Shown in pieces: positions 4,462 through 22,718 of a stretch of 64,000 nt of DNA (positions within the stretch are counted from its first letter, which is position 1; every line of letters starts with the position of its first letter). Source of the DNA: Methanobrevibacter gottschalkii DSM 11977 (lineage in GTDB: Archaea > Methanobacteriota > Methanobacteria > Methanobacteriales > Methanobacteriaceae); contig NZ_RKRG01000002.1 of assembly GCF_003814835.1 (NCBI RefSeq), positions 496,001-560,000 on the forward strand, given 5' to 3'. The notes beneath the pieces are model-generated. The model saw only the letters and a list, made by a program, of their open reading frames with translations. It was not told the origin of the DNA and did no database searches. The translations under genes and the position numbers were made by a program.

Positions 4462-4775
4462 TGTCATTCTGTTTAGATACTTACCTTCAACAATCTGATG
4501 ATTATGAAATTCATGCTTCAAAAGCTGGTTTTAAAGATTGTGCCATGATTATCAGATTCAAAGCTGATGATTTAGTGTATGTTAAGCCGGGAGATGAAGT
4601 TTTAGGTGTTAGAGTAATTGGTATTCCTCCAATTCCAATTGGATTTGACCATAATAAAGGAACTGTATTCATTCCATATACCAAACCTTGTCATGGAACT
4701 TCTGTTGTCGAACTTCCGATAAATGAAGAAGAAATTGAAAAAATCAGAAAACTTGATACTGGTAATAAAAAATGA
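4461..4775 (+). CDS. DUF1894 family protein
   Basis: A 104-residue protein that fits DUF1894, another methanogen-restricted family of unknown function. It has three cysteines (SFC, DCA, PCHG); the Cys-His pair in KPCHGTS could bind metal. It is translationally coupled at both ends: its ATG overlaps the last base of the upstream DUF1890 gene and its own stop (TGA) overlaps the ATG of the methionine synthase gene. That tight packing argues that the three proteins act together. No membrane segment or signal peptide. Confidence 0.76.
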   Translation: MSFCLDTYLQQSDDYEIHASKAGFKDCAMIIRFKADDLVYVKPGDEVLGVRVIGIPPIPIGFDHNKGTVFIPYTKPCHGTSVVELPINEEEIEKIRKLDTGNKK

Positions 4776-5716: not shown

Positions 5717-5721
5717 GTAAA

Positions 5722-6153: not shown

Positions 6154-6437
6154 CTCATAAAAAAGAAATTAATTGATGAACATTACTTCGGTAGTTATAT
6201 ATTCTTAATTGTTATAAAAATTATAATTAATATGTGAAGTTTATTAAATTAATGCATTATTTGAAAGAAGATTATTTTTATGATGTAGGGATGCAGTTGA
6301 AAATATTGTTCTAATCATTCAAAACATCTTATTTAAGAAATACTGATTGTTCTATGAAATATTTAGAATATGTTGTTGAAGAAGATTTTGATAAAAAATT
6401 TTAAATTTAAAATAATTATTCCAGATTAGGTGGTTAA
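6154..6437. other. Intergenic stretch with a possible gene-tail remnant
   Basis: AT-rich. Near 6354-6404 one plus-strand frame reads MKYLEYVVEEDFDKKF then stop, which resembles the charged end of a real protein, but frames around it are broken. I see no promoter or RNA structure I would defend. Confidence 0.3.
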
Positions 6438-7169
6438 ATGAAATTTTTAGTTATTAATGGATCTCCTAGAAAACAGAATACTTATAATGTTATTAAACAA
6501 GCAAAAGTTAATTTAAATGGTGATTTTGAAGAAATAAATTTAATTAAGGAAAATATCCCCATGTGTAACGGATGTTTTAAGTGTATTCTTGAAAGTGAGA
6601 CAGAATGCCCTCATTATGATAAAATCGATCCAATAATCGAGAAGTTGCACGAATGTGATGGTTTAATTATTGGTTCGCCAGTCTATGCGATGAATGTTAC
6701 AGGACTTTTGAAAAACTTCTTTGATCATACTGCTTATTTGTATCATAGGCCTGAATTTTTTACTAAAAAAGCATTGGTTGTTGTTACAACTGCTGGTGCA
6801 GGTCATAAAAAAGTAGCTAAGTACATTGATGAAACATTAAGGCATTGGGGAGTAAATAAAGTTTATAAAATATCATTTGCTTGTGGTGGGAATGATTCAT
6901 TGGATAATGATAAAGTTAATAAAGTGTCTCAAAAATTTGCATTTGATTTAATATCGAACAAATTACATTCTCCTAAGTTTACAGATATTATATTTTATAA
7001 TGTATGGAGAGCTATGGCATTATCAAAAGATCCTATAAAGGCAGATAAGGAATATTGGTTTAATACTGGTTTAGTTAATCATGATTTTTCACCGGAAGTC
7101 AAATTGAATATTCCAAAAATTGTATTTGCAAAAATTGTATTTAATGTTTTAAAAAAAGCAATTAAATAA
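6438..7169 (+). CDS. Iron-sulfur flavoprotein-like NADPH-dependent FMN reductase
   Basis: A 243-residue protein of the flavodoxin-like NADPH-dependent FMN reductase superfamily. It opens MKFLVINGSPRKQNTYN, the phosphate-binding loop for FMN. It then carries Cys-X2-Cys-X2-Cys-X7-Cys (CNGCFKC then ECPHY), matching the compact cluster motif of methanogen iron-sulfur flavoprotein (Isf), followed by GSPVYAMNVTG, the second flavin loop. Isf proteins shuttle electrons between ferredoxin and an acceptor, perhaps oxygen or peroxide. The C-terminal 70 residues are an extension beyond the flavodoxin core. Ribosome binding site AGGTGG. Stands alone; cluster ligation is inferred from the motif only. Confidence 0.82.
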   Translation: MKFLVINGSPRKQNTYNVIKQAKVNLNGDFEEINLIKENIPMCNGCFKCILESETECPHYDKIDPIIEKLHECDGLIIGSPVYAMNVTGLLKNFFDHTAYLYHRPEFFTKKALVVVTTAGAGHKKVAKYIDETLRHWGVNKVYKISFACGGNDSLDNDKVNKVSQKFAFDLISNKLHSPKFTDIIFYNVWRAMALSKDPIKADKEYWFNTGLVNHDFSPEVKLNIPKIVFAKIVFNVLKKAIK

Positions 7170-7244
7170 TAATATGGATTTTAAAGTAATGTTATATATC
7201 TGAAATGATAAATTTATTGTACTGATTAATTAATTGGGATTATA

Positions 7245-8273
7245 ATGGTTTTAAGGGAAAACAGAATTTTTTATTTAGATGAATTAAGAGCTATTGCAAT
7301 TTTATGCGTAATATTTGCTCATACAATTCAAAATTTTCCCACTAATATGGATTATTTAACATCTCCCACTCTTCTTTCTTATCTTACAGTTGCTAGAATG
7401 GGTGTTATTCTTTTTTTCATGATTAGTGGGGCATTGCTGATTGGCAGGGAATATAATTTATCTGATTTTTTAAAAAGAAGATTTGCCAGAGTATTAATTC
7501 CAACAATTTTTTGGCAGATTATTGGATATTTATCAGTTCTAATTTTTATAGGTTTTACTTATGATAATTTAGTTCAAGCAAGTGTTCAAGTTGGTTTTCC
7601 ATGGTTTGTATGTGCAATTTTAGGGATTTATTTTGTTATTCCCATATTTAATTCCTTTATTAAAGAATATGGGATTAAAGGTGCAGAATATTTCTTGATT
7701 ATATGGGTATTTTTAGTTATATTAACAAATATGCAGCTAAATGAAACTTATTATATTGATTTCATATTCAACAATGTAGGAATATATATTGGATATGCAG
7801 TTTTAGGTTATTATTTAGCAAATAAAGAGTTTAATATATACTCTTTTCCTATGGTTGTAATATGCAGTGTTCTTTTTATTATTTCTCTTGCTTTAAATAG
7901 TTATTATGCATTTAATTTTAGTCATGTATTTTACATAGAGTCCTATTCAATTATTGTTCAATGTGCTTTGTTATTTTTGATTTTAAGGTATATGAGTAAA
8001 TTAGCTAAATTTAGACCAAAGTTTGTTTTATCAAAACTACATTCATTTGTTCAAAATTCATTTATTGGTAGCTTTATTTACTATTTAAGTATTTTTAGTT
8101 TTACGATTTACTTAATGCACGGTTTTATTGTAAATGCAATTATTAAATACATGCCAGTTACTCAATTTAGTATGATTCCAGCAATATTTCTATTAATAGC
8201 TGTAATTTCTATTGTTATTGCTGCAGTTTTGTCTAAAATGCCTATTATCAGCAAGTTGTGCGGTATTTATTGA
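7245..8273 (+). CDS. Acyltransferase 3 family membrane protein
   Basis: The 342-residue protein has about ten membrane helices and the N-terminal signature of acyltransferase family 3: FYLDELRAIAILCVIFAH, in which Arg and His are the conserved catalytic-region residues. Such enzymes (OafA, WecH, NodX types) move acetyl or other acyl groups from the cytoplasm to sugars on the outer face of the membrane, so a role in modifying pseudomurein, exopolysaccharide or glycoprotein glycans is likely. It has its own transcript: 75 nt upstream are AT-rich and no neighbour on the same strand is close. Converges on the cobalt-precorrin gene. Confidence 0.88.
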   Translation: MVLRENRIFYLDELRAIAILCVIFAHTIQNFPTNMDYLTSPTLLSYLTVARMGVILFFMISGALLIGREYNLSDFLKRRFARVLIPTIFWQIIGYLSVLIFIGFTYDNLVQASVQVGFPWFVCAILGIYFVIPIFNSFIKEYGIKGAEYFLIIWVFLVILTNMQLNETYYIDFIFNNVGIYIGYAVLGYYLANKEFNIYSFPMVVICSVLFIISLALNSYYAFNFSHVFYIESYSIIVQCALLFLILRYMSKLAKFRPKFVLSKLHSFVQNSFIGSFIYYLSIFSFTIYLMHGFIVNAIIKYMPVTQFSMIPAIFLLIAVISIVIAAVLSKMPIISKLCGIY

Positions 8274-8306
8274 GAAAAATAGAATAAAAAAGTATGAATA
8301 TGAAAT

Positions 8307-9059
8307 TTATCTATATTCATGTTTAAAGTTTTTGTCATATAGCTTAGATGCATTAAAATCTCCAGGGTCTAAAACATCTCCAACTATAATCATTGCAGTC
8401 TTTGTTATATTGGCATCTTTTACTTTTTGTGCAATATCCTCGAGGGTTCCTTTGATTATTTGTTGGTCTGGCCAAGTTGCTTTTTTAACAACAGCAATAG
8501 GTGTAGTTTTTTCATAACCTACAAGTAATTCATCAACCACTTTATCAATCATACCAATACCTAAAAAAATGCACATTGTTGCATGATGTTTGGAAAAACT
8601 TGCTAAACTTTCACCATCTGGTTTTGGAGTCCTACCTTCTGGACGGGTAATAATTACACTTTGTGAAATTTCCGGTAAGGTTAATTCTGCTTCGAGTACA
8701 CTTGCAGTACCAAATAATGAACTTACTCCAGGAATAATTTCATATTCGATATCATGTTTTTTAAGTTCACGGATCTGTTCAGCAATTGCTCCATAAATTG
8801 ATGGATCGCCTGTATGAACACGAGCGACTAGTTTTCCTTCATCAACTGCTTTTGTAATGATTGCATCTGTTTCATCTAAATTTAAATAGGCACTATTATG
8901 AATCTCACAGTCTTCACGAGCAGGAGATAAAACATCAGGATTTACAAGTGAACCTGCATAAATAATTACATCAGCTTTTTCTATGACATTCCTTCCTTTA
9001 ACAGTTATTAATTCAGGATCTCCAGGACCCGCACCAATGAATATAACTTTTCCTTTCAT
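8307..9059 (-). CDS. cbiF: Cobalt-precorrin-4 C11-methyltransferase
   Basis: This SAM-dependent tetrapyrrole methylase adds the C11 methyl in the anaerobic cobalamin pathway, supplying the corrinoid for Mtr and MesA-type reactions. The N-terminus VIFIGAGPGDPELITVKG is the family signature. Also visible are YAGSLVNPD, the HTGDPSIYGA SAM-binding loop and VPGVSS, all diagnostic of CbiF/CobM. At 250 residues it is of normal length. The gene is monocistronic, convergent with the acyltransferase gene and divergent from the pilin-like gene set. No ribosome binding site is seen before the ATG at 9059, so the transcript may be leaderless. Confidence 0.95.
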   Translation of the reverse strand: MKGKVIFIGAGPGDPELITVKGRNVIEKADVIIYAGSLVNPDVLSPAREDCEIHNSAYLNLDETDAIITKAVDEGKLVARVHTGDPSIYGAIAEQIRELKKHDIEYEIIPGVSSLFGTASVLEAELTLPEISQSVIITRPEGRTPKPDGESLASFSKHHATMCIFLGIGMIDKVVDELLVGYEKTTPIAVVKKATWPDQQIIKGTLEDIAQKVKDANITKTAMIIVGDVLDPGDFNASKLYDKNFKHEYR

Positions 9060-9157
9060 ATTTTAATTTTTTATTTCAAGTATTATTTAATTATTATGTA
9101 TCAAAATTGAATTTTAATCTGAGCAAACTTTATTAATATTTAAATTAATTAGAAAAT

Positions 9158-9553
9158 ATGAATGATAGAGGTTTTGTTTCAGTTGAATACATTTTTACAT
9201 TATTTATACTCTTTACAATTGGATGTGGTTTATTGTTTTATTCCTCATCACTTATTAACTCAAGTATTAATATTGAAGATTCTGTATCTCATAGAATCAT
9301 TTTAAATGATGTTTCTTGTGTAATTAGCCAAGTTAATTCAAATGGTGTTGGTTATTCAAAATACATTAAACTGCCATCGGATAAAGGTTATTTTGAAATT
9401 ACTGTTGATAAATCCAAACTGACAATAGAATATGATAATAAGAAAGGTGAAACTATGCTTCCTCTTTTGAATATGGATTCTAAATATAAATTAATCAGCG
9501 GGAGAGGATATTATATTTCAAAATCTGATGATGGAAAAATTGTGATAACATGA
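9158..9553 (+). CDS. Pilin-like protein with N-terminal hydrophobic segment
   Basis: A 131-residue protein with a short positively charged head (MNDRG), then FVSVEYIFTLFILFTIG, a hydrophobic stretch with a glutamate at position +5 after Gly. This is the layout of type IV pilin/archaellin precursors cut by a prepilin peptidase after Gly5. The remainder is soluble and strand-rich. No conserved domain is recognised. The next gene overlaps by 4 nt and has an even clearer class III signal peptide, so the two are probably minor pilins or surface fibre subunits. No ribosome binding site is visible; an AT-rich TATA-like segment lies about 25 nt upstream, suggesting a leaderless transcript. Confidence 0.65.
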   Translation: MNDRGFVSVEYIFTLFILFTIGCGLLFYSSSLINSSINIEDSVSHRIILNDVSCVISQVNSNGVGYSKYIKLPSDKGYFEITVDKSKLTIEYDNKKGETMLPLLNMDSKYKLISGRGYYISKSDDGKIVIT

Positions 9554-10047
9554 CAGGTGACAATGGACAGATTTCAGCAGAGTTATTATTTCTGTTTGGA
9601 ACACTAATAATCGTTTTAATGATTTCTATTGTGTTTATTTCAGATGAAAATGAACTAAATATTGCAATGGCAGCAGCACACAGCGGTGTTATAGAAGGGC
9701 TTGCTACATCATCAAGCGGAATTTATCCTGCAGATGCTTACAGTGATTATTCAAATTCTAAAATGAATGTATTGGAACCATATTCTGTTGAGATAGTTAA
9801 TATTTCATATACTGAGCTTGGAGGAGATAATAATTATGATAAAAAACAAATCCAGTTTAAAGTTTATGCAAAAACATCTGACAGATTCAATAATAAAGAA
9901 TTAACTTCAATTGGGGATAGGATAAATTATAACTTAAGAAAATCCATTGCAGTTAGTTTTAATTCAATAAATGCCACCAATAAACTTTATAATCCAGTTT
10001 TTTCACCTCATTATGTTTACACGACCGCTAATGTTAAATGGGTATAA
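9550..10047 (+). CDS. Class III signal peptide (pilin-type) protein
   Basis: A 165-residue protein whose N-terminus, MTGDNGQISAELLFLFGTL, contains QxSxE directly after Gly, the motif defined for archaeal class III signal peptides (cut by EppA-type prepilin peptidase between Gly6 and Gln7). A 20-residue hydrophobic helix follows, then a soluble, serine/asparagine-rich region probably displayed outside. It overlaps the pilin-like gene upstream by 4 nt and the next gene by 10 nt. Likely a pilus or surface-filament subunit, or a pseudopilin; which structure it builds cannot be told because no ATPase, platform or peptidase gene is adjacent. Confidence 0.72.
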   Translation: MTGDNGQISAELLFLFGTLIIVLMISIVFISDENELNIAMAAAHSGVIEGLATSSSGIYPADAYSDYSNSKMNVLEPYSVEIVNISYTELGGDNNYDKKQIQFKVYAKTSDRFNNKELTSIGDRINYNLRKSIAVSFNSINATNKLYNPVFSPHYVYTTANVKWV

Positions 10048-10433
10048 ATACATATATTGATTTCATGTATAGTGAAGATGAAAAAAAGCAGTTGATGGAA
10101 GATTTAAAAGAAATGGAAACTTTTAAAGTGGATACTGGGGATGAAGGTAAAATATTGCAGAACGATTTGGAGGAATATTTCATCAATGGAAATGGGGATA
10201 GGGAAGATTTAACTTTCAGAATTGAATTATACTTCTATGCTTTTAAAATATTCTGTAGAAAACCAGTTGTTATTGATAGAAACCAATTCACAATATTTTT
10301 CAATGATTCATTGCTTGATTGGAATTTAATAAAACTGATTATGGATGATTTATCAGACTTTGAACTTGAAATTGAAGCAGTTAAAGAAGAAAGAGATGTG
10401 CTTATTAATTTAAATTTCACACTTCATTACTAA
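10038..10433 (+). CDS. Hypothetical acidic protein encoded with pilin-like genes
   Basis: A 131-residue soluble, acidic protein without a signal peptide or membrane segment; I do not recognise the family. Its start codon lies inside the end of the class III signal peptide gene (10-nt overlap in another frame), which implies translational coupling. A cytoplasmic accessory role for the two pilin-like proteins is inference from position only. It converges with tatD: the last 4 nt of the two genes overlap (10430-10433). Confidence 0.6.
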   Translation: MGINTYIDFMYSEDEKKQLMEDLKEMETFKVDTGDEGKILQNDLEEYFINGNGDREDLTFRIELYFYAFKIFCRKPVVIDRNQFTIFFNDSLLDWNLIKLIMDDLSDFELEIEAVKEERDVLINLNFTLHY

Positions 10434-11191
10434 ATTTTGAAAATATTACAAGCGTTGCTTGTGGTAATTTCATCAACTGTGCCGATATCCATATTCTTAA
10501 TTTCAGCTATTTTATAAACTGCATTTACAACATTTGCAGGTTCATTTCTCTCTTCTTTTGTCATTGCCAAATAAGGACTGTCCGTTTCAGTTAAAATATA
10601 GTCCAAGTCTATTTTTTCAATCAAATCCTGGTGCTGTTTAGAATAGCAGAGCATAGTAGAAAAGCTCATATATGCATTGTCCATATTCATTATTCTTTTT
10701 GCAGTTTTTAAGCTACCACCATAGCAATGAAAAACAAAATAAGGAATATCTTCATATTCATAGATGATATTAACAGCTTTTTTTTCACAATCCCTTACAT
10801 GCATTACAATTGGTTTTTTGTATTCATTAGCTAATTCTAAAAAACCGGTGAATATTTTCTGCTGTCTTTTGCGTAATGAGTTATCGGTTACATAAAAGTA
10901 GTCCATTCCAACTTCACCAATGGCTACAATGTCATCTAAATGTTCAACAATGTTTTCATGAGCAGTTTTTATTTCATCATCAGTTGCATTTTGTGAACTT
11001 ACAGGGTGAAAACCGAAAGTTGGATAAATAAAACCTTCATAATCTTTTGAAAGTTTCAAAACGTCCATATTGCTGTCATTACTGTACCCTGAAACAATTA
11101 CATTATCTAATTTATCTTTGGCTCTTTTGATAACTTCATCCCTATCATCATCAAAATCTTCAAAATCAATATGGCAATGTGTATCAATCAT
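10430..11191 (-). CDS. TatD family metal-dependent hydrolase
   Basis: TatD-type enzymes are amidohydrolase-fold nucleases or hydrolases that act in the cytoplasm with two metal ions. The start MIDTHCHID contains the HxH metal pair. GEVGMDY carries the bridging Glu, VMHVRD and FHCYGG the later histidines, and TETDSPYL the catalytic Asp: a full set. I chose ATG 11191 rather than the upstream TTG at 11203, because GGTG sits 6 nt before it and the true family N-terminus is reached at once. The ATG lies just past the end of uppS, whose stop codon overlaps the ribosome binding region; the two are coupled. Confidence 0.92.
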   Translation of the reverse strand: MIDTHCHIDFEDFDDDRDEVIKRAKDKLDNVIVSGYSNDSNMDVLKLSKDYEGFIYPTFGFHPVSSQNATDDEIKTAHENIVEHLDDIVAIGEVGMDYFYVTDNSLRKRQQKIFTGFLELANEYKKPIVMHVRDCEKKAVNIIYEYEDIPYFVFHCYGGSLKTAKRIMNMDNAYMSFSTMLCYSKQHQDLIEKIDLDYILTETDSPYLAMTKEERNEPANVVNAVYKIAEIKNMDIGTVDEITTSNACNIFKI

Positions 11192-11192
11192 A

Positions 11193-11957
11193 TTATGCAC
11201 CAAACCTTCTTTCTCTTGCCTGATATGATCTGATTGCCCTTATAAAATCAACTTTTCTAAGTTCCGGCCATAAAGTTTCACAGAAATATAATTCTGAGTA
11301 TGAAGATTGCCAAAGTAAAAATCCACTTAAACGTTCCTCCCCGCTGGTTCTAATGATTAGATTAGGATCATCAAGTCCTGCTGTATAAAGATTTTTACTT
11401 ACAAGTTCTTCATCCACATCATCAATAGATATTTTTCCATCTTGCACATCTTTAATAATCTTTTTAAACGAATCAATAATTTCTAAACGTCCATCGTATC
11501 CAATAGCTAAGTTGAGGAATCTTTTATTATATTGTGCTGTTGCATCTTCTGCTTCTTTTATTGCTTCTTTCACATTATCCGGAAGTAATTCAGTTCTGCC
11601 TACTACTTTAACTTTTACTTCATATTTATGTATTTTCGGATTGTCCACTAATCTTTTGAAGTTAATGACAAATAAGTTCATTAATCCATCTATTTCATGT
11701 TTTGATCTATTGAAATTTTCTGTTGAGAAAGCATAAGCAGTAATAATCTCTATTCCAAGTTCAATACTCCAATCCATTACTTTTTCTAAAATATTCACAC
11801 CCATTTCATGTCCTTTAACAACATCAATGTTTCCTTGTAATTTTGAGTATCTTCTGTTGCCGTCCATAATAAAAGCAACATGTTTTGGCATTTTTTCAGG
11901 AACTAAATTCCTTGAGATGTACCATTCATATAATCTGTAAAGTATATTTTCTGCCAT
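11193..11957 (-). CDS. uppS: Polyprenyl diphosphate synthase, cis-type (UppS family)
   Basis: Adds isopentenyl units in cis to an allylic primer to make the long polyprenyl phosphate that carries sugars for pseudomurein and N-glycan assembly. The protein has [14 protein letters not shown], the signature Asp-Gly-Asn-Arg active site, then [12 protein letters not shown] and the C-terminal [20 protein letters not shown] motif. Archaeal enzymes use geranylgeranyl diphosphate to form tritrans,polycis products. At 254 residues it is normal in length. It precedes tatD in the same direction with overlapping translation signals; the Alg7/AglH-type gene at 37.8 kb would use its product. Confidence 0.95.
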
Positions 11958-11974
11958 GTTATCCCTTTTTTTAT

Positions 11975-12691
11975 TTAAAAGTTATCTAGAGTATTTGCTA
12001 ATATTAAACTACGAACATACCCTTCAATACTTTGATCTCTGCTTGTATCAATGTATATTTTATCCATTCCAAAGGTTATTGCACCATAACTTGGCCAGGA
12101 ATTAAGTAAAACTAATGTCCTAAATATGATATTTCCCACTCTTCCGTTTGGGGCAACAATAATATTGCAATCATCTTTAATTGCTTTTTCAACTAGAATA
12201 TAATAGTTTTTAACTTCTTCTCCAGTAGTTTCTTGGATAAGTTTTGTTAGTTTCTCGCTGTCTGTAATAGATTTTGACACTTCTTCGCCTCTTCCAAAAT
12301 CATCTTTTCTTCCTTCTGCAAGAACTGCTATTTTTGGAGTTTTTCCAAGTCTTTTATAAAAAGCAATGCAGTTTTTGACAATATTTAATTTATCTTCTAC
12401 ACTGTTGCCTTCATCGATTCCAACAGGTGTTAATAGAAATTCATATTCGTCTCCATTAACATAAGTTGCTCGGGTAATCTCTGGGTAGATTTCCTTTAAT
12501 TCCCTCATAATATTAGAAGCTGGAAGTGACCCGCGAACCACACCATGTATTTTATTATCTAAAACTGCACGCACTAAGTCTTCATCACGATATATTAGTT
12601 TTAAATCCGTTTTTGGGTGTTTTTCTTTAAAAATATGACAAGCTTGTATTATATTTTCATTTTTTCCAACACCAATAGCTATTGTTTTCAT
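11975..12691 (-). CDS. mtxX: Methanogenesis marker protein 4 (MtxX)
   Basis: A 238-residue protein matching MtxX/methanogenesis marker 4, a family found in methanogens and related to the phosphate acetyl/butyryltransferase fold; early annotation called it a methyltransferase-related protein. Features include [11 protein letters not shown] at the start, [17 protein letters not shown] (about residue 51), and [16 protein letters not shown], a PTA-like substrate loop. Its biochemical role is not known to me. No ribosome binding site precedes the ATG. A TATA box, TTTATATAAG on this strand (12713-12722), lies about 27 nt before the start, so the mRNA is probably leaderless. Confidence 0.85.
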
Positions 12692-12801
12692 TAGTATAAC
12701 TTTTAGTATTATCTTATATAAATTAATTTTTCTTGAATGGTTATCTTTAATTTAAACATTATGGAACTTAAAAAAAGCAAGAGGAATATTTTATCCTCAA
12801 T

Positions 12802-14181
12802 TTATATTTGATTATCAAAATTGTCAATTGCGCTATTTACTAAATTAATGATTGTTTTTGATAAATCTGGATATGTATCATTAATTGGAATTGGAATATT
12901 GTCACAGTAAACGACATCAAGACCAGCATTTATTGCATCTTTTGTTGCAACATCAACTGCGGCAGCTTTAAGTTCACTGAGCATCACATCGGCATTATCC
13001 ATATATTTTTTCATATCTTCACGTAAAAGCGGCCTATTAGATAAATGGGATGTTGTACCAATGATTTTGCATTTGTAATTTTTCTCTAAATACTGAACTA
13101 GTTTGTCTTTAACACCTTCAGGTGCGGTAGTTGCAAATAAAACATTTTTACCAGAAATGTCCTCTAATGGTTTAGGCCTAAATACTGTTGAAATAATTGG
13201 AGCATCTGGATTAATTTCTTGTATGAATTCTTCAATTTTAGCTATTTTATCCTTTGATGCCATAGGTTCTTCACACATTGTTAAGATAATTAAATCTCCA
13301 AGTGAAATCCTGTAAGGTCCAAAGTAACCTGTTACTGTTTCAATTGGTTGATTTGCACCAACAAGTGTGATTTTTTTATCAGTTTTGATAGGGGGTATTG
13401 CAGCTCCGCTACCTTCAAAAATTGCTAATTTTGAATCAACTTCATTGGCTAACTTTGCTCCCTTTTTCATATTGGTCAAAAATACTTCGCCAGCCATTCC
13501 ACCGCCGCAACGTCTACAACCTATGGTTAATATCCTACTCATTAAAGCATCTTCCCAATGATCACTTGCTGCATGAATTCCTTTTTCAGATTGTTCTAGG
13601 AGAAATTTTGAGGTTATTTCTAATTCTTCACCATGGACTATTTCAGGTTCGCTAGGTCCGCCTCTACCCATAGCTATTACACAAGGTTCATAATTATTTT
13701 TGTCAATTAATCTAGATACAAATCCGGATACTGCAGTTTTGCCAATACGTTTGCCAGTTCCGAGAATTGTAATTGATGGTTTTTTCATAATGTCATATTG
13801 TGATACAGGTTCAAATTTAAAATCCGGACCTTCATAACTTATTCCTTCATTAAGTACACTACAAGCTATTTTAAACCGTTTAGGATAATCCAATATTGGT
13901 TCATCACTTAAATCCATGACTGTATCAATATTATATTGTCTAATCATACTGACGATAATATCATATGGAATATCTTTATCTTCTGCAAATTGAACTGGAA
14001 CTCCTAGTTTTTGTGAGTATGTTTCTTCCGAATCATCTCTAAGCTTTTCAGTTCCTCCAATAAAAACAGCACCAGCAACATCAATATGCTCCAAGTTGTT
14101 TAAAGTATCTATTGCTTGTTGTGTAACAGGTAAGTAGTGTTCACCATCAACCAAACATAGCATCTTGTTAATAGCTTTCAT
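12802..14181 (-). CDS. cpgS: Cyclic 2,3-diphosphoglycerate synthetase
   Basis: This 459-residue protein makes cyclic 2,3-diphosphoglycerate from 2,3-diphosphoglycerate and ATP, a compatible and phosphate-storage solute best known in Methanothermobacter, Methanothermus and Methanobrevibacter. A P-loop-type segment, [17 protein letters not shown], lies near residue 135, followed by [11 protein letters not shown] and [14 protein letters not shown] (about residue 257). The length agrees with the known enzyme (about 460). It is divergent from the UPF0280 gene with only 36 nt between the two ATGs, so both promoters overlap the opposite gene's start. No ribosome binding site; probably leaderless. 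Confidence 0.9.
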
Positions 14182-14217
14182 AAAAATTAATATTGATTTA
14201 ATGATATATATTATTAT

Positions 14218-14934
14218 ATGGATATTTCTGAAATTAATTTAGATGAAACGCATATCAGATTAACAACTGATCTTAGTTGTCATGATTTAAAAAGATACAT
14301 ATTTTCTATTAGAAGGGATTTAAAAAATTATATTTTTAAAAATCAGGAATTTGCATTGTCATTAGAACCGATTAAATCTGAAGATAATCTTCCATTAATT
14401 GTAAAAACAATGATTGATGCATCCAATATTGCTGATGTTGGTCCAATGGCTTGTGTTGCAGGTGCAATATCTCAATTGTCGCTTAATTATTTAATTGAAC
14501 AGGATTCTAAATATTCCATTGTGGAAAATGGTGGAGATATTGCCCTTATAAATGATTCATCATTATTGTGCGGAATTTATTCCAATAATCAAGTTCTGGG
14601 AAATGATATTGCTTTTAAAATTAAACCTAGAAAAAAACCTTTAGGGATTTGCACTTCATCAGGAAAAATTGGGCACTCCATAAGTTTTGGCAAATCAGAC
14701 AGTGTTACTGTTATTTCAAAATCATCTGCCATCTCAGATGGAATTGCAACCCGAGTTGCTAATGAAGTTAATGGTAGTAATAGTGAAGAAAAAGTTTCAA
14801 AGGGTTTGGAATGCGGGGAGGATTATAGTGAATTTTTTGACGGTCTATTAATAATTTCAGAAAATAATGTGGGAACTGTTGGCAGATTACCAAAAATTAT
14901 TGAGACTAAAGAGTTTGATGTAAAAATTGTTTAA
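14218..14934 (+). CDS. UPF0280 family protein, ApbE-like
   Basis: A 238-residue soluble protein of the UPF0280 family, widespread in methanogens and structurally related to ApbE flavin transferases. Recognisable segments are [12 protein letters not shown] (about residue 78), the ENGGDIAL motif near residue 102 that corresponds to the ApbE core, and [19 protein letters not shown], the ApbE-type substrate loop. Whether it transfers FMN is unknown. It is divergent from cpgS across 36 nt and lacks a ribosome binding site, so it probably starts at or near the 5' end of its mRNA. The 385 nt downstream lack genes. Confidence 0.85.
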
Positions 14935-15757: not shown

Positions 15758-16528
15758 TTGAAATCTTTTGAATTTTTATCAATAAAAAGGGAAAAAAAGC
15801 CTAGAACATCCGGTTTAACAATGGTTTTAGATAAGGGATTAGGTCTTGAAACTGCAAGCAGCTTAATGGATATTTCAGGTGAATACGTAGACTATTTAAA
15901 GTTTGGATGGGGAACATCCATTGTTCATGAACAGGACATCATTAAATCTAAAGTTGAAATGTATAAATCTCATAATATTACTCCCTATACTGGAGGAACA
16001 CTTTTTGAACTTGCTTATACAAAAGATAAACTTGAAGAATTCTTTGATGAAGCACATAATTTAGGTTTTCCAGCTATTGAAGTATCAGATGGATCAACAG
16101 ATATCCCTCATGAAAACAAATTGGAATGCATTGAAAAAGCAAAAGAATCAGGTTTTGAAGTGTTATCTGAAATTGGTAAAAAAAATCCAATTTTAGATAA
16201 GGAATTGTCTATTGACGAGAGAATTTCTAATATGGCTGATGAACTTAATGCAGGTTCCTCATTAATAATTGTAGAAGCTCGCGAGGGCGGAAAGAATATT
16301 GGAATATTTGATAGTAAAGGAAATGCTAAAGAAGATGAAATTGATACAATCCTAAACAGCATCAAAGGAGAAAAAATCCTTTGGGAAGCACCAAATAAAA
16401 ATCAGCAAGTGTTTTTCATTTTAAAACTTGGAAATACTGTTAATTTAGGAAATATTTCTAGTGATGAAATCACATCTCTTGAAACACTAAGAAGAGGTTT
16501 AAGAGGAGATACCTTCGGAAAATTATAA
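15758..16528 (+). CDS. comA: Phosphosulfolactate synthase
   Basis: ComA joins sulfite to phosphoenolpyruvate, the first step of coenzyme M synthesis in this lineage. The family features are present: KPRTSGLTMVLDKG at the N-terminus, YVDYLKFGWGTS, TPYTGGTLFELA, FPAIEVSDGS and a later EAREGGKNIGIF. I start at TTG 15758, which gives 256 residues (the family is about 250) and leaves 9 nt to the GAG at 15746-15748; the TTG at 15749 would touch that site. TTG also fits the gene downstream. comF-like begins 13 nt after the stop, opening a com/hdr operon. Confidence 0.93.
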   Translation: MKSFEFLSIKREKKPRTSGLTMVLDKGLGLETASSLMDISGEYVDYLKFGWGTSIVHEQDIIKSKVEMYKSHNITPYTGGTLFELAYTKDKLEEFFDEAHNLGFPAIEVSDGSTDIPHENKLECIEKAKESGFEVLSEIGKKNPILDKELSIDERISNMADELNAGSSLIIVEAREGGKNIGIFDSKGNAKEDEIDTILNSIKGEKILWEAPNKNQQVFFILKLGNTVNLGNISSDEITSLETLRRGLRGDTFGKL

Positions 16529-16541
16529 AAAGGTGTATCAA

Positions 16542-17795
16542 TTGAAGAATAATAGAACAATTGGTGAAATTAACGAAAAAATCACCAATGGCGAAGCGAA
16601 TATTTACACTGCAGAAGAATTTAAAAAACTCATAAAAAATGATGAAACACCAAGTTTTAATGAAGTTGATGTCGTTACATGCGGAACATGTGGTGTAATG
16701 AGTGGGACAGCAGCTATTTTAAATTTTGTAGTATCTGAACCGGGTAAATTTATAAGAGCAAATGAAGTTTATTTAAACGGAGTTCCAGCATATGCAGGCC
16801 CGTGTCCAAATGAGTGGTTAGGTTCTGTTGATGTAATTATTCATGGAACTGCACATTCCATTCATAATGAAAATTATGGTGGAGGATTCTTATTTAAAGA
16901 CATACTTGAAGGAAAAGAAATTGATGTAAGGGTTGAAAGTGCAGATGGCAAAACAATCAATAATACAATAACTAAAGAGGATATTATAAGAGCGCAAATT
17001 ATTGGAACTCGTATGGCATTTAAAAATTACACTGCTTTTACAAACCCAAATAAAGAAGATATTTCATCAATATTTGCTGCAAAACCTCTTGGAGGAAACT
17101 TGAGTGGATTAACCTTCTCAGGATGCGGTGATTTGAATCCGCTTCAGAATGATGTTCCTCAAAACGTTATAAAAGAGGGAACTAAAATTCTTATAAATGG
17201 AACACAAGGTTATGTACTTGGTAATGGAACAAGATCAAGTGCTGAAAAACCAAATTTAATGTTGACTGCAGATTTGATGCAAATGGATTCATATTATATT
17301 GGCGGTTTTAAAACAGGCCAGGGCGGGGAAGTTTATGATACAGTAGCCATTCCAATACCAGTATTAAATGAAGAAATTTATAATAATTTACTAATAACTG
17401 ATGATAAAATTAGCATTACTGTATCCGATATCAAAGGACGTCATCTGCCGCTAACTGAAACCAATTATGCTAAACTTTGGGGTGAATATAGTTTAAGACC
17501 ACAATACGACAGGGCTAATTGTTATAAATGTGATTCATGCACTGTGGAAGAGGTCTGTCCAACAAATGCATTTGCAAATGAAAGATTGGATCTCACACAT
17601 TGTTTTGGATGTGGAATGTGTGCTAATTATTGTCGCCATGATGCATTTGATATGAATATGGGAAGTGTAGATTTAACAATTGATAATGAAGATGTAAATA
17701 TTCCAATTATCTGCAGACAATCTGATAGGTTAAGGGGAAATAAATTATCCTTAAAGTTAAAAAAATTGATTCAAAATCAGGAATTTAAATTATAG
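16542..17795 (+). CDS. DUF39 protein with two C-terminal ferredoxin clusters (methanogenesis marker 16; candidate ComF)
   Basis: A DUF39 domain (about residues 10-320) is followed by a di-cluster ferredoxin: CYKCDSCTVEEVCP and CFGCGMCANYC. DUF39 proteins insert sulfur into aldehydes: the MA1821 type makes homocysteine from aspartate semialdehyde, and the form with fused ferredoxin (methanogenesis marker 16; I recall MJ1681 being proposed as ComF) converts sulfoacetaldehyde to coenzyme M. Likely catalytic cysteines are in VTCGTCG (Cys47, Cys50) and GPCPNEW (Cys88). The position directly after comA and before hdrCBA supports the ComF reading. TTG 16542 lies 6 nt after AAGGTG; GTG 16533 is the alternative. 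Confidence 0.82.
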   Translation: MKNNRTIGEINEKITNGEANIYTAEEFKKLIKNDETPSFNEVDVVTCGTCGVMSGTAAILNFVVSEPGKFIRANEVYLNGVPAYAGPCPNEWLGSVDVIIHGTAHSIHNENYGGGFLFKDILEGKEIDVRVESADGKTINNTITKEDIIRAQIIGTRMAFKNYTAFTNPNKEDISSIFAAKPLGGNLSGLTFSGCGDLNPLQNDVPQNVIKEGTKILINGTQGYVLGNGTRSSAEKPNLMLTADLMQMDSYYIGGFKTGQGGEVYDTVAIPIPVLNEEIYNNLLITDDKISITVSDIKGRHLPLTETNYAKLWGEYSLRPQYDRANCYKCDSCTVEEVCPTNAFANERLDLTHCFGCGMCANYCRHDAFDMNMGSVDLTIDNEDVNIPIICRQSDRLRGNKLSLKLKKLIQNQEFKL

Positions 17796-17805
17796 GTGTT
17801 TTAAA

Positions 17806-18414
17806 ATGCAAAAAATTACGGATTCACCGATTGATTTTGCTGAAGAGATTATTGAAGATGTAAAAAACTCTAAAGAAGAAGGTGTTTTAAAATGTGTTCA
17901 ATGTGGAATGTGTACTTCAACATGTCCTGCAGCATTACATTCTGATTATAATCCTCGTGATATTATTGAAAGAGTATTGGATGGTGATGTATCAATTATT
18001 GAAGATGATTGTATCTGGAATTGTTTTTATTGTTATACATGTCATAGTGTATGTCCTGTTGGAAATAGTGTATGTGAAGTAAATCAAATTTTAAAGCAGT
18101 TTGCAATTAAAAACGAAATTGGACATGATAAACTTTATGAATACATGGGTTTTGCAGATTCTTATTTTACTGCAGCTATTGGAGCAATTCCTGAAATATT
18201 TTTCAAAGATATTGATCGTGATGTGCCGGGATGGTGGGATTTTAGATTACATTTAGATGAAATTAGAAAAGAATTAGATTTAAATCCTCCTTTAATGCCG
18301 TCAAAAGAAGTTATTGATGAAGTAAGTAAAATTTTGACCATTACCGGTTTTAAAGATAAAATTGAAACAATAAGGTCAACACAGGAGGATAAAAATGAAA
18401 GTAATTCCAGATAG
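17806..18414 (+). CDS. hdrC: Heterodisulfide reductase-type subunit C (HdrC paralogue)
   Basis: A 202-residue soluble iron-sulfur protein. Two classical cluster motifs are intact: Cys30-X2-Cys33-X2-Cys36-X3-Cys40-Pro and Cys73-X2-Cys76-X2-Cys79-X3-Cys83-Pro. In the HdrABC complex HdrC wires FAD-bearing HdrA to the HdrB active site. The gene starts 10 nt after the DUF39 protein (AGGTG before the ATG), and its end overlaps hdrB by 20 nt. The position inside a coenzyme M gene cluster rather than beside mvh hydrogenase genes suggests a paralogue with its own role, although I cannot see whether the genome has other hdrC copies. Confidence 0.85.
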   Translation: MQKITDSPIDFAEEIIEDVKNSKEEGVLKCVQCGMCTSTCPAALHSDYNPRDIIERVLDGDVSIIEDDCIWNCFYCYTCHSVCPVGNSVCEVNQILKQFAIKNEIGHDKLYEYMGFADSYFTAAIGAIPEIFFKDIDRDVPGWWDFRLHLDEIRKELDLNPPLMPSKEVIDEVSKILTITGFKDKIETIRSTQEDKNESNSR

Positions 18415-19336
18415 TGATATTCTTTTATTTAGAAGCTGTCTTGTTAGTGTTGAATATCCAGGTATTGAATCATCAACAAAGTTTGTTTTTGATAAATTGG
18501 GAATTGATTATGCAATTTCAGAAAATCAAACCTGTTGTACTGGGCTTGGTCATTATTCTGATGTGTTTGATCAGATTGATACAACAGCTATTGGAGCACG
18601 TAATTTTAAAATAGCAGGTAATTTAGGTCGTAAAAATTTAGTTATGATGTGTGCAACATGTTATGCAATTAATAAAAAATCAGTAAAATTACTCAACAAA
18701 AAAGATGATTTGAGAAATCATATTAACAAGCTATTTGATGATAATGACTTGTCTCACTTAAAATATGAAAAAGATGATTTAAATCCAACAGAAAATATTT
18801 TTCATGTTGTGGATATTTTGTATGGTAAAAAAGATGAAATTAAAGATAATATTAAATATGATTTAAGTGATTATGCAATAGCAACACACCATGGATGTCA
18901 TTACTGTAAAGTACACTATGAGGATACTATTGGTGGTGTGAGGGATCCTAATATTCTTGATGAATTGATTGAAGCATGTGGTTGTAATACTATTGGTTGG
19001 TATGATTACAAACGTGCAACATGTGGGACTGGATTTAGGCAGAGGTATTCTAATCCTGATTTGTCATTTACAGCAACTGCTGACAAAATGAATTCAATAG
19101 ATGATGAAAATGTTGATATTTTAGTTCATCTATGTCCGAATTGCCATATTCAATTTGATAGGTATCAACATTTAATCGGAGAACGTGAAGGCAGAAAATT
19201 CAGAGCAATACATCTAAATATAGCTCAGTTTATTGCATTGGCTATGGGAGGAGATTTTGATAAGGTAATAGGTGTTAAAGCTCACACAGTACCGATAGAT
19301 TCAGTAATTAAAGAGTTAAAGGAGGTCAACAAATGA
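18395..19336 (+). CDS. hdrB: Heterodisulfide reductase-type subunit B (HdrB paralogue) with altered second CCG motif
   Basis: HdrB of HdrABC splits the CoM-S-S-CoB disulfide at two noncubane [4Fe-4S] clusters, each held by a CCG motif. The first is complete: Cys15, Cys47-Cys48 and Cys86-X2-Cys89. The second has Cys168 and Cys247-X2-Cys250, but Thr209-Cys210 replaces the Cys-Cys pair, so one expected ligand is missing; Cys171, Cys195 and Cys197 are extra cysteines nearby. The 313-residue length is usual. AGGAGG precedes the ATG inside the hdrC end, and its own stop overlaps the hdrA start (ATGA). The altered site suggests a different substrate or a changed distal cluster. Confidence 0.85.
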   Translation: MKVIPDSDILLFRSCLVSVEYPGIESSTKFVFDKLGIDYAISENQTCCTGLGHYSDVFDQIDTTAIGARNFKIAGNLGRKNLVMMCATCYAINKKSVKLLNKKDDLRNHINKLFDDNDLSHLKYEKDDLNPTENIFHVVDILYGKKDEIKDNIKYDLSDYAIATHHGCHYCKVHYEDTIGGVRDPNILDELIEACGCNTIGWYDYKRATCGTGFRQRYSNPDLSFTATADKMNSIDDENVDILVHLCPNCHIQFDRYQHLIGEREGRKFRAIHLNIAQFIALAMGGDFDKVIGVKAHTVPIDSVIKELKEVNK

Positions 19337-21642
19337 GGGATAATTTGAAAATTGGTGTGTTTTTATGTGAATGTGGGGGAAATATTGCAGATACTATTGA
19401 TTTAGATGAAGTAAGGGATGCATTGGATGTAGAATTCATCGGACAGTTTGAAAATTTATGTTCACTTAATGGACGTAAAATAATTCGTGATGCAATTTTT
19501 GACCATGATCTTGATCGTGTTGTAGTTGCAGCATGTTCGCCGATAAGCCATGAAAAAACTTTTCAGGATTATATCAAACCATTAAATCCCTATTTGATGG
19601 ATATGGCAAATATAAGAGAACAGTGTTCTTGGGTACATTCGGATAATGAAAAAGCAACTCACAAAGCTATTACTTTAATAAATGCTTCTATTGAGAAAGT
19701 TAAACAATCTGATGCAGTAGATCCGATTTATTGCCAAACTCCTGATGAAGTTGCTGTTATCGGTGGTGGAATAGCTGGAATGAATGCAACGTTATCTCTT
19801 GCCAAGCAGGGAACAAAAGTTACCTTAATTGAACAATCCCCTTCGATTGGAGGGCATATGGCTAAAATTGGTAAGGTATTTTCACCTGTTAAAATTGCAG
19901 AAGAATGTGGTATGTGTCTTTTAAATCCGATTTTAAATGAACTTGTTTGGAATGAAAATATTGAAGTTTTGACAAATACTAAGGTTATTGAAGCTGAAAG
20001 ACGTGCTGGAACTTATAATCTAATACTGGAGAGATCTCCAAGATATGTTGATACTGAAAAATGTATTGCTTGTGGTAATTGTGCGGAAGTGTGTGAAGTT
20101 GAAGTTCCAAATGATTGGAATGATAATTTATCTTTAAGAAAAGCAATTTACAGGCCTTTTGGACAATCCTATCCTGAAGCTTATGTAATTGACATGGAAA
20201 ACTGTTCTAAATGTGGAGATTGTTTTAGAGAGTGCACTATGAAAGCTATTAGACTTAAAGGAAAACCTGAAAGGATTCCGCTTCAAGTAGGTTCTGTTAT
20301 TGTAGCAACAGGCCATAAGTTATTTGACATGGAAAAAAGACCGGAATATGGATACACCCGTTATGATGATGTAATAACACAATCTGAATTAGGTCGTATT
20401 ACTGGTGTTAACGGACCAACCAAAGGTAAACTCTTAAAATCTAATGGTGAAGTTCCAAAACGTGTTGTTATGATTCAATGTGTTGGTTCAAGAGATGAAA
20501 AACCAGAAGGACATAGATATTGTTCTAAAATCTGCTGTACAATAGCACTAAAAAATGCCAATATCATTAAGCATAAATATCCGGATACTGATGTTTTAAT
20601 TTGTTATACTGATGTTAGAACTCCTGGAATGTTTGAAAAATATTATAAGCACACTCAGGAAAATGAAGTTAGGTTTATTAGAGGACGTCCTGGTGAAGTA
20701 GTTAAAAAAGGAGATAACTTCATTGTAAGAACAGAAGATACAATTAAAGGTGAATTTGTAGAAATTGAAGCTGATATGGTAGTTTTATCAACTGCAATGG
20801 AACCATCTGAGGGCACAATAGAAATTGCTGAAATTTTAAATGTTGGTACTACTGAGGATGGATTTATTAAAGAATCACACCCTAAAATCAAACCGGTAGC
20901 GACTGATGTTCAAGGAATATTTGTATGTGGAACCGCACAAGATCCGAAAGATATCACTGATTCAATTATGCAGGCAACTGCAGCAGCATCAAAAGTAAAT
21001 GAATACAATTATGGTGGAGTGGAAATTGAACCGTTCATTGCAGAAATTGACACTGAAAAATGTATAGTCTGTGGTGACTGTATAGAGAGATGTAAATATA
21101 AGTCTATGAGCATACAAAATGATGAGATTTATATCGATCCGATGAGTTGCACTGGTTGCGGAAAGTGCCTTGTTGGATGTAATCAAAGAGCAATTACAGT
21201 TAATGGTAACATTGATGAGAAAATCATGTCCACAATAAAAGGAGTATTGTCTAAAAAACAAGAGGGTCAACGTACAATATTGGTATTTTTAGATAACATT
21301 GGTTATACTGCTGCTGATAATATTGGTGTAAATAGATTGTCTTACCCTGAATCTATCCATATTATTAAAGTGATTTCAGTAAATCGTGTAAGGCCAAGAC
21401 ATATTCAATATGCTCTTGAAAATGGTGCTGATGGTGTATTTATTGGCGAATTCCCTGGAGATTTAATGTATGATGAAGTGGAACGTAAAATCCAAAGGGT
21501 AAAAGATAGAATTTATGAAATGGGTGAAAATCCGGAAAGAGTAACATTTTCGAAGGTATATATTCCATACTTCTCAGGATTAGCTCGCAAATTCGTTGAT
21601 TTCGATAAAAAAATTGAAGAATTAGATGAAGCTGAATTATGA
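19333..21642 (+). CDS. hdrA: HdrA-type flavin electron-bifurcation subunit fused to ferredoxin and cysteine-less MvhD-like domain
   Basis: The 769-residue protein has the HdrA core: an N-terminal cysteine domain (Cys12, Cys14, Cys43, Cys68, Cys98), the FAD loop GGGIAGMNA at 144-152, the segment EECGMCLLNP, a di-cluster ferredoxin (Cys244-254 and Cys291-301), and YCSKICC near 400. A second di-cluster ferredoxin (Cys577-587 and Cys606-616) and an MvhD-like domain (about 645-760) follow, as in HdrA2-type proteins. The MvhD part keeps the fold pattern (RVRPRHIQYALENGADGVFIG) but has no cysteine, so it cannot hold a [2Fe-2S] cluster. Ordinary HdrA is about 660 residues. The start overlaps hdrB by 4 nt. 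Confidence 0.9.
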   Translation: MRDNLKIGVFLCECGGNIADTIDLDEVRDALDVEFIGQFENLCSLNGRKIIRDAIFDHDLDRVVVAACSPISHEKTFQDYIKPLNPYLMDMANIREQCSWVHSDNEKATHKAITLINASIEKVKQSDAVDPIYCQTPDEVAVIGGGIAGMNATLSLAKQGTKVTLIEQSPSIGGHMAKIGKVFSPVKIAEECGMCLLNPILNELVWNENIEVLTNTKVIEAERRAGTYNLILERSPRYVDTEKCIACGNCAEVCEVEVPNDWNDNLSLRKAIYRPFGQSYPEAYVIDMENCSKCGDCFRECTMKAIRLKGKPERIPLQVGSVIVATGHKLFDMEKRPEYGYTRYDDVITQSELGRITGVNGPTKGKLLKSNGEVPKRVVMIQCVGSRDEKPEGHRYCSKICCTIALKNANIIKHKYPDTDVLICYTDVRTPGMFEKYYKHTQENEVRFIRGRPGEVVKKGDNFIVRTEDTIKGEFVEIEADMVVLSTAMEPSEGTIEIAEILNVGTTEDGFIKESHPKIKPVATDVQGIFVCGTAQDPKDITDSIMQATAAASKVNEYNYGGVEIEPFIAEIDTEKCIVCGDCIERCKYKSMSIQNDEIYIDPMSCTGCGKCLVGCNQRAITVNGNIDEKIMSTIKGVLSKKQEGQRTILVFLDNIGYTAADNIGVNRLSYPESIHIIKVISVNRVRPRHIQYALENGADGVFIGEFPGDLMYDEVERKIQRVKDRIYEMGENPERVTFSKVYIPYFSGLARKFVDFDKKIEELDEAEL

Positions 21643-21668
21643 TGAGGATAACCCTCATTATTTTTTTT
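21641..21668 (+). terminator. Hairpin terminator between hdrA and comE
   Basis: ATGAGG (21642-21647) pairs with CCTCAT (21653-21658), followed by a run of T from 21659 to 21668. It begins at the hdrA stop codon and separates the convergent hdrCBA and comDE transcripts. Confidence 0.6.
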
Positions 21669-21685
21669 AGATTTTAATTTTTAAG

Positions 21686-22222
21686 TTAAACAATATCCAT
21701 GAATCTATTTTTAATTTCTACTGGACTTAAATCAATAATTGGAGCTTTTGAGTTTCCGGGTTCTGTGTGATATACAATAAAACTTGCATCATCACTTTTT
21801 ATAAATTCCTTTAGATTAATATCTTCAAAATCATAACTATTTTTAAATCCAACTCCTCTTGCAACATCCACTAAATCAAGTTTTTGAGCATAAGTATCTT
21901 GATTACCAGTTGATCCGTATGCACCATTATCTATTACAATCCAAGTTAAGTTTTTCGGATTATTTGCAAATATGGTTACAAGTGATCCCATATTCATTAA
22001 AAGTGCTCCATCCCCATCAATTACAACAATGTTCCTGTTAGGCTGTGCTAATGCAAGACCAAGTCCAATTGAAGATGCAAGTCCCATTGATCCAATCATA
22101 TAAAAGTTTTCTTTCCTATCTTTGATATCATATAATTCTCTTGATGGAAATCCAATATTGCAAACGACTAATTCATCGTCAATACAGTTAATTATGTTTT
22201 CAATAGCTTCTCTTCTTGCCAT
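21686..22222 (-). CDS. comE: Sulfopyruvate decarboxylase beta subunit
   Basis: ComE with ComD decarboxylates sulfopyruvate to sulfoacetaldehyde using thiamine diphosphate, the step before thiol formation. This subunit carries the cofactor motif: GDGALLMNMGSLVTI, then VIDNGAYGSTGNQ, the GDG-X-N thiamine/Mg site, plus GSMGLASSIGLGLALA. I chose the ATG at 22222 (MARREAIEN), which is preceded by GGTGAT and gives 178 residues; an upstream in-frame ATG at 22255 would overlap comD by 29 nt without a ribosome binding site. comD precedes it by 4 nt. It converges on hdrA from the same pathway. Confidence 0.93.
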   Translation of the reverse strand: MARREAIENIINCIDDELVVCNIGFPSRELYDIKDRKENFYMIGSMGLASSIGLGLALAQPNRNIVVIDGDGALLMNMGSLVTIFANNPKNLTWIVIDNGAYGSTGNQDTYAQKLDLVDVARGVGFKNSYDFEDINLKEFIKSDDASFIVYHTEPGNSKAPIIDLSPVEIKNRFMDIV

Positions 22223-22226
22223 ATTA

Positions 22227-22718
22227 TCACCAATACTTAATTTCAAGTAATACACTTACAGGTTTTCCTTCTTCAACTGATAATTCCCAAGCTTCTTTTA
22301 CATCTTCATATGCTCCTTCAGGAGTTCCTGGCTTGAAGAATTTATAATTCATTGCTTCCAATATTAATGGTGTTGACTCACCCATTGGGACCTGTCCACA
22401 AATATTTTCTCCTTCAGTACCTCTATGGCTCATTACCATAAGTAAAGGAAATTCATATAGTTCTGTTAGGGATTTTAATGCATTAATTGAATTTCCAAGC
22501 CCTGAATTCTGCATTAAAATTGCTGCTTTTTTACCTCCGAGATATGCTCCGGCACATATTCCTATTCCTTCTTCTTCACGAGTAACTGGAATATGAATAA
22601 TATCCGGATCTTTATCAATCATATTTAATAATTTTGATAAGTTAACACATGGAACACTAACAATAAAGTTAATTCCTGCATCTTTAAGTCCATCAAATAT
22701 AGCTTCACTACTATCCAT
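22227..22718 (-). CDS. comD: Sulfopyruvate decarboxylase alpha subunit
   Basis: The 163-residue ComD is the pyrimidine-binding half of the thiamine-diphosphate enzyme and pairs with ComE. The conserved glutamate that activates the cofactor lies in [19 protein letters not shown] (residues 48-50). [14 protein letters not shown] and [13 protein letters not shown] are further family motifs. In some methanogens ComD and ComE are one chain; here they are separate genes 4 nt apart, as in M. jannaschii. Upstream is 157 nt of AT-rich DNA shared with the divergent cofH, presumably holding both promoters. Confidence 0.93.

Follow-up and report, generated by a model that had tools for sequence, protein, structure and literature searches.

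A paralogous HdrABC encoded among coenzyme M synthesis genes in Methanobrevibacter as a candidate electron supplier for coenzyme M synthase

The com/hdr locus and the family of its Hdr

We analyzed a stretch of 64,000 nucleotides (nt) from Methanobrevibacter gottschalkii DSM 11977 (contig NZ_RKRG01000002.1, positions 496,001 to 560,000; hereafter the window) and focused on a locus in which genes for the synthesis of coenzyme M (CoM), the methyl carrier of methane formation, surround a complete hdrCBA set, whose products are homologous to heterodisulfide reductase (Hdr). The genes comA, mmp16, hdrC, hdrB and hdrA follow each other with gaps of 13 and 10 nt and then overlaps of 20 and 4 nt, and converge on comE and comD (Table 1). 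A first-pass annotation had described this tight operon, and its gene content and spacing are borne out, all seven genes passing the curated NCBIfam cut-offs. While ComA, ComD and ComE are encoded within the window, the gene for ComB lies outside it in the same genome (G000:C1:159872). The first-pass annotation had also ascribed the last step of CoM synthesis to the DUF39-ferredoxin gene. We found that the encoded protein is a full-length member of TIGR03287 (methanogenesis marker 16, MMP16), in which a ferredoxin domain (ferredoxin-type matches at residues 320-376) is inserted into a COG1900 domain, and MMP16 has been described as CoM synthase, ComF (PMC12068725).

Table 1. Features of the com/hdr locus, in window coordinates
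Feature	Position	Strand	Assignment	Start and remarks
UPF0280 family gene	14218..14934	+	PRK04334 family match	
comA	15758..16528	+	(2R)-phosphosulfolactate synthase, first CoM-specific step; TIGR03849, 330.7 bits (cut-off 280)	TTG, read from sequence; stop at 16528
mmp16/comF	16542..17795	+	COG1900 (DUF39)-ferredoxin coenzyme M synthase; TIGR03287, 532.9 bits (cut-off 364)	TTG behind GGTG ribosome site, read from sequence; mechanical open reading frame starts at GTG 16533
hdrC1	17806..18414	+	two-[4Fe-4S] electron-transfer subunit; NF041890, 319.2 bits (cut-off 270)	ATG, GGTG ribosome site
hdrB1	18395..19336	+	CCG-domain catalytic subunit; NF041780, 542.8 bits (cut-off 450)	ATG, GGAGG ribosome site; distal site altered (Thr209-Cys210 for Cys-Cys)
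hdrA1	19333..21642	+	FAD/Fe-S subunit; NF041891, 1404.3 bits (cut-off 1300)	ATG; Gly354 at Glu356 position; C-terminal MvhD-like domain (PF02662, residues 649-764) without cysteines
Hairpin with T run, terminator-like	about 21640-21668	none	between the convergent operons	read from sequence by eye
comE	21686..22222	-	sulfopyruvate decarboxylase beta subunit; TIGR03846, 241.5 bits (cut-off 221.5)	most likely ATG 22222 behind GGTGAT site, 4 nt after comD; mechanical open reading frame starts at 22255
comD	22227..22718	-	sulfopyruvate decarboxylase alpha subunit; TIGR03845, 222.5 bits (cut-off 148)	

The host genome (1.88 Mb, 6 contigs) encodes a second HdrB, of the canonical type (C2:173186; TIGR03288, 483.8 bits), with an HdrC-like frame just upstream, and a canonical HdrA (C1:446575) that shares 39% identity with the operon HdrA. 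The second, canonical Hdr that the first-pass annotation had proposed to look for is thus present, and the operon Hdr is therefore a paralogue, separate from the methanogenic Hdr; the idea that it is itself the methanogenic enzyme was rejected. Canonical HdrB was found in 94 of 96 genomes (G-numbers denote genomes, L-numbers loci and g-numbers genera, with g1 Methanobrevibacter and g12 Methanosphaera); among the genomes without an HdrB of the operon type (HdrB1) it is missing only in the Methanothermobacter-like G149, which we take to be Methanothermobacter thermautotrophicus. The canonical HdrB match of G128, presumably Methanosphaera stadtmanae, covers only positions 71-290 (C1:1159345-1160004) and lies inside a reported open frame of 5563 aa, which is perhaps a masked run of N.

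Judged by family profiles and phylogeny, the operon hdrCBA is the Methanobacteriaceae form of HdrA1B1C1 of Methanosarcina acetivorans (hdrA1C1B1, MA3126-3128), to which it is orthologous. HdrB exceeds the cut-off of the HdrB1 family NF041780 in both the window and M. acetivorans, and the window HdrB is below the cut-off of TIGR03288 (canonical HdrB). A maximum-likelihood tree places the window HdrA in one clade (support 100/100) with all Methanobacteriaceae orthologs and the Methanosarcinia HdrA1; this clade stands apart from HdrA2 and from canonical HdrA, the latter represented by only one row, which the program flagged as a long branch. HdrA of the Methanosarcina HdrA2B2C2 likewise carries a C-terminal MvhD-like domain, but differs from the window HdrA in retaining Glu356 and the MvhD cysteines and in branching as a clade of its own. 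An HdrA2-type assignment on the grounds of the MvhD-like tail was rejected by the tree, by the missing MvhD cysteines and by the score against the HdrA2 family NF040770 (755 bits, below the cut-off of 1100). The Methanobrevibacter set shares with HdrA1B1C1 the HdrB family, the HdrA clade and all three losses described below; unlike it, it has the order C-B-A, sits within a com operon and carries in HdrB an extra Cys171 near the distal site, which is absent from Methanosarcinia HdrB1. In the sources available to our literature search no biochemical characterisation of HdrA1B1C1 was found; a role in methylotrophic redox balance has been proposed and said to need validation (PMC6019823).

Compared with canonical HdrABC (PDB 5ODC, 8RVU), the set is homologous over its full length and keeps the HdrA cluster cysteines, Lys409 and the proximal CCG motif of HdrB, but it has lost Glu356, carries a fused MvhD-like domain free of cysteines and shows an altered distal CCG motif. 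Glu356 of Methanothermococcus thermolithotrophicus HdrA positions the flavin-contacting Lys409 and was proposed as a marker of bifurcating enzymes (PMC12054007). With residue numbers mapped onto 5ODC by alignment, we observed Gly or Ala at this position in 84 of 85 HdrA rows (the lone Glu was attributed to the genome's own canonical HdrA), whereas HdrA2 and canonical HdrA retain Glu; Lys409 is kept in 85 of 85. The C-terminal domain of HdrA1 is homologous to MvhD (PF02662), but the cluster cysteines that would form the [2Fe-2S] entry point of MvhD were not found in any HdrA1 inspected, while HdrA2 keeps them. Contrary to the description of HdrA1 as having no MvhD extension (PMC6019823), the domain is thus present, without its cluster ligands. 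In the alignment to solved HdrB, two complete CCG motifs were not found: the proximal ligands are intact, and in 109 of 110 proteins the distal Cys-Cys has Thr, His or Ser in place of its first Cys, the exception again being the genome's own canonical HdrB. Methanobacteriaceae HdrB instead has a Cys three residues after the position of the first Cys of the distal motif. All eight HdrC cluster cysteines are invariant in 108 rows and the other cluster ligands of HdrA1, HdrB1 and HdrC1 are invariant or nearly so, and therefore the hdr1 genes are not decaying. Taken together, the three losses suggest that the enzyme is linked to ferredoxin, probably does not bifurcate and has a catalytic site unlike that of heterodisulfide reductase. 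The earlier description of the operon Hdr as an electron-bifurcating partner of CoM synthesis finds no support in these residues, since Glu356 is replaced and the MvhD-domain cysteines, through which mid-potential electrons would enter, are lost across the clade.

Linkage and co-occurrence with MMP16

Next, we compared the surroundings of mmp16 and the hdr1 set across genomes. In 56 of the 57 Methanobrevibacter genomes having both genes, hdrB follows mmp16 on the same strand at a distance of 568-629 nt, and the arrangement is therefore not a matter of chance. In one genome of this genus (G059:C30:24765-34317) mmp16-hdrB occurs twice in tandem with nearly equal spacing, which looks like a block duplication. 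Untruncated Methanobrevibacter loci keep the order comA-mmp16-hdrCBA, which was also found in g3, g6 and g9. The same operon as in the window is present in G046 (comA 85079, mmp16 83790, hdrB 82263, comE 79394), presumably Methanobrevibacter smithii PS; in that case M. smithii from the human gut shares it. Other orders were observed too: hdrABC, a UPF0280 gene and comED sharing a strand, with a ThiF-like gene and mmp16 farther on (L066), hdrCBA-comD-x-comE (L067), a further hdrC-hdrB pair that lacks hdrA and immediately precedes mmp16 (L062, L063), hdrC alone before mmp16 (L183) and hdrCB divergent from mmp16 (L182). In a locus of the Methanosarcinaceae, which belong to another phylum (L171), cysteate synthase-comDE-mmp16 is divergent from hdrA1-hdrC1-hdrB1. 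Published neighborhoods of MMP16 frequently include an ATPase, a Ni-binding GTPase and a COG2000 Fe-S protein; hdr genes are not mentioned as its neighbors in the accessible text of PMC12068725.

For the co-occurrence of HdrB1 with MMP16 we relied on Methanobacteriaceae genomes that are at least 90% complete, because among seven Methanobrevibacter genomes that seemed to lack both genes several absences (in some cases of hdrB only) were assembly gaps or N runs, such gaps affecting G062, G105, G064, G016, G079 and G101. We observed both proteins in 71 genomes, HdrB1 only in 1, MMP16 only in 3 and neither in 8, of which G062 is an assembly break. Canonical HdrB is retained in all 8. Four genomes of g9 (G023, G024, G028, G034) are devoid of comA, mmp16, hdrCBA and comDE; if G024 is Methanobrevibacter ruminantium M1, as we assume, the CoM auxotroph M1 has none of the operon. 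In G063 and G104 (g1) and G013 (g6) comA, mmp16 and hdrCBA are lost and comDE is kept (L201, L204 and L202), and the comDE of G063 and G104 has diverged to 64-73% identity to the window; these three genomes may be young CoM auxotrophs. Strain M1 has been reported to be without CoM synthesis genes and without the extra hdrABC found in Methanobrevibacter millerae, two facts that are not connected in the accessible part of that paper (PMC4987999). In Methanosarcinia, all 39 genomes whose HdrB1 exceeds the cut-off also have MMP16, and a further 89 genomes have MMP16 without HdrB1. The Hdr1 set thus occurs almost only together with ComF, and ComF occurs without need of the Hdr1 set. Fisher tests on these tables ignore shared ancestry and physical linkage and were given little weight. 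Co-loss as proof of function was likewise demoted to weak support, as in linked genera a single deletion removes all the genes.

A candidate electron supplier for coenzyme M synthase

Two open questions meet at this locus, namely the electron source of CoM synthase and the role of the non-essential HdrA1B1C1 in methanogens. Published mutants bear on both. When hdrA1B1C1 was deleted in M. acetivorans, total CoM fell from 28.2 to 16.7 nmol/mg, coenzyme B (CoB) could no longer be measured and the share of CoM in reduced form rose from 82% to 93% (PMC12713407). Growth of the mutant was slowed by 19% with 0.025-0.4 mM sulfide, and by 81% when cysteine was the only source of sulfur (PMC9963511). Mutants of MMP16 are CoM auxotrophs without sulfide, which masks the deletion; they upregulate hdrABC together with comDE, and the number of electrons needed by ComF was given as two or four, dependent on the sulfur donor (PMC12068725). 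The M. acetivorans authors explained the hdr phenotype by slowed heterodisulfide reduction. To us the numbers fit a role in thiol-cofactor biosynthesis better, because without a disulfide reductase more of the CoM, and not less, should be oxidised.

Our favored explanation, to which we give about an even chance, is that the HdrA1B1C1 variant, separate from the methanogenic Hdr, ferredoxin-dependent and probably non-bifurcating, supplies the reductant for the ComF step. Reduced ferredoxin would donate to the ferredoxin domains and FAD of HdrA1, electrons would pass through HdrC1 to HdrB1, and HdrB1 would reduce the sulfur donor or a thio-intermediate on MMP16 during the conversion of sulfoacetaldehyde to CoM, in which ComF exchanges an aldehyde for a thiol and needs two or four electrons. 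HdrBC would be the part that meets MMP16, as suggested by the hdrCB pair without hdrA that adjoins mmp16 in some genera, and CoM-S-S-CoB is probably not the main substrate. The earlier proposal that the Hdr paralogue feeds the last step of CoM synthesis is supported by the linkage, the second Hdr and the mutant data; that ferredoxin is the donor, that bifurcation does not occur and that the electrons reach ComF is what we infer.

Several observations weigh against this explanation. Six Methanobacteriaceae genera (g4, g11, g12, g13, g15, g16) have the hdr set with no com gene nearby, and hdr1 and com sets lie apart in nearly all Methanosarcinia. The joint neighborhood which the first-pass annotation expected in relatives is hence found in part: several gene orders join hdr1 to com genes in two phyla and six genera are unlinked. 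Its expectation of co-occurrence fared similarly, as HdrB1 is found almost only where MMP16 is, while Methanothermobacter-like genomes have comF without hdr1, as does Methanocaldococcus jannaschii. Since, in addition, M. jannaschii MMP16 is reported to work in Escherichia coli (cited in PMC12068725), the set is not obligatory; in genera without it MMP16 would take electrons from ferredoxin directly, and its own ferredoxin domain might be served by any ferredoxin. Where the genes are linked, their joint absence may go back to a single deletion of the whole block. Finally, the M. acetivorans hdrABC mutant is reported not to be a CoM auxotroph: CoM plus acetate rescues it, CoM alone does not, and com overexpression did not restore growth. 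An additional loss of CoB would explain why CoM alone fails.

Among the alternatives, the one that survives best is that the enzyme uses ferredoxin to reduce CoM-S-S-CoB, CoM-S-S-CoM or mixed disulfides and so maintains freshly synthesised CoM in the reduced form; it would stand beside the com genes as both control the CoM-SH pool. This agrees with the family names, which read ferredoxin:CoB-CoM heterodisulfide reductase, with the interpretation of HdrA1B1C1 by the M. acetivorans authors and with the intact proximal cluster ligands of HdrB. We nevertheless regard it as unlikely: the distal ligand set is altered throughout, the near-restriction of hdr1 to ComF-bearing genomes is left unexplained, and a mutant in which the reduced CoM fraction rises, total CoM falls and CoB is unmeasurable shows the opposite of what a lost disulfide reductase would cause.

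An enzyme of energy metabolism that confurcates or hands electrons from ferredoxin on to heterodisulfide and F420, with only a secondary link to the com genes, would be expected to keep Glu356 and the MvhD cysteines for mid-potential exchange. These are lost, and Methanobrevibacter has its canonical complex, so we consider this reading quite improbable, even though such a role was proposed for methylotrophic growth of M. acetivorans (PMC6019823, by its own statement in need of validation) and the hdr1 set adjoins apparent mvhDGAB and sufCB genes in some genera. We give still less credence to an enzyme that reduces a persulfide or thiocarboxylate carrier and thereby provides local sulfide to several pathways, CoM and CoB included, without contacting ComF. 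The tightest and most conserved linkage is that to mmp16 itself, and some genera have an additional hdrCB pair next to mmp16, against which are to be set the ThiF/MoeB-like, ThiI and SufCB genes adjoining mmp16 or hdr1 in several genera, a mutant defect that is worst with cysteine as sole sulfur source, and the disappearance of CoB. That the operon is an inherited fusion without functional tie is very improbable: about half of the genera with both genes are unlinked and a single deletion can cause co-loss in linked genera, but hdr1 is found with different com genes, in differing gene orders, in two phyla, at least two genera include genomes that lost comA-mmp16-hdrCBA and retained comDE (G063 and G104 in g1, G013 in g6), and the mutant data come from Methanosarcina, where hdrA1B1C1 and the com genes are unlinked.

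Should HdrA1B1C1 indeed supply reductant to ComF, what passes for a heterodisulfide reductase in methanogens of gut and rumen will need a new name, the unusual behavior of the M. acetivorans mutant with respect to CoM, CoB and sulfide will be accounted for, and existing mutants will allow a test of where a methanogen-specific cofactor gets its electrons. A wider generalization, which we put forward only tentatively and hold to be somewhat unlikely, is that HdrA1B1C1 across methanogens is no heterodisulfide reductase of energy metabolism and instead serves specifically, as a reductase driven by ferredoxin and without bifurcation, the aldehyde-to-thiol step in making both thiol cofactors, CoM and CoB; this would provide the electron source that CoM synthase has been missing. 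The parts were known already. What appears new here, from alignment and gene context, is the connection of HdrA1B1C1 with ComF and the clade-wide loss of Glu356, of the MvhD-domain cysteines and of one distal HdrB cluster cysteine; neither was found in the literature accessible to us, where coverage of subscription journals is thin and a prior mention is possible.

Further neighbors of mmp16 and the hdr1 set

The UPF0280 gene upstream of comA in the window has counterparts at com/hdr loci of several other genera, in varying gene orders: it adjoins hdrA in L066 (4108-4848), is near comE in L067 (6795-7535), adjoins comA in L112-L114, L139 and L200 and was also seen at L198. It is a possible accessory gene of the com/hdr1 system. 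A gene for a ThiF/MoeB-like adenylyltransferase of 250 aa lies near mmp16 in g5, g8 and g10 (L063:11491-12243, L062, L066, L183, L185, L186), and thiI follows mmp16 in L181, L184, L187-L189 and L192. These two kinds of neighbors suggest a persulfide or thiocarboxylate as sulfur donor for CoM synthesis.

In insect-gut relatives a complete hdrCBA is located near sufCB in g8 and g11 (L060, L061, L064, L065, L068), and in g7 (L059) and g8 it is near an apparent mvhDGAB operon, judged by gene sizes and one MvhD-like match. No single functional signal emerged from the hdr1 neighbors in Methanosphaera (a UvrD-like helicase, cPGS) and in g7, g8 and g11 (sufCB, mvh). In Methanosarcinaceae locus L171 (positions 4115-14256, G290) the com/hdr1 block stands beside an MreA-type regulator, and a gene for a LeuC/HacA-type aconitase comes after hdrB1. 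The latter might belong to the CoB pathway, but was not used as evidence for a homoaconitase of CoB synthesis, as it just missed the homoaconitase cut-off (533.7 of 550). Such an aconitase gene directly follows hdrB1 also in L146-L148, L151, L173, L174 and L212.

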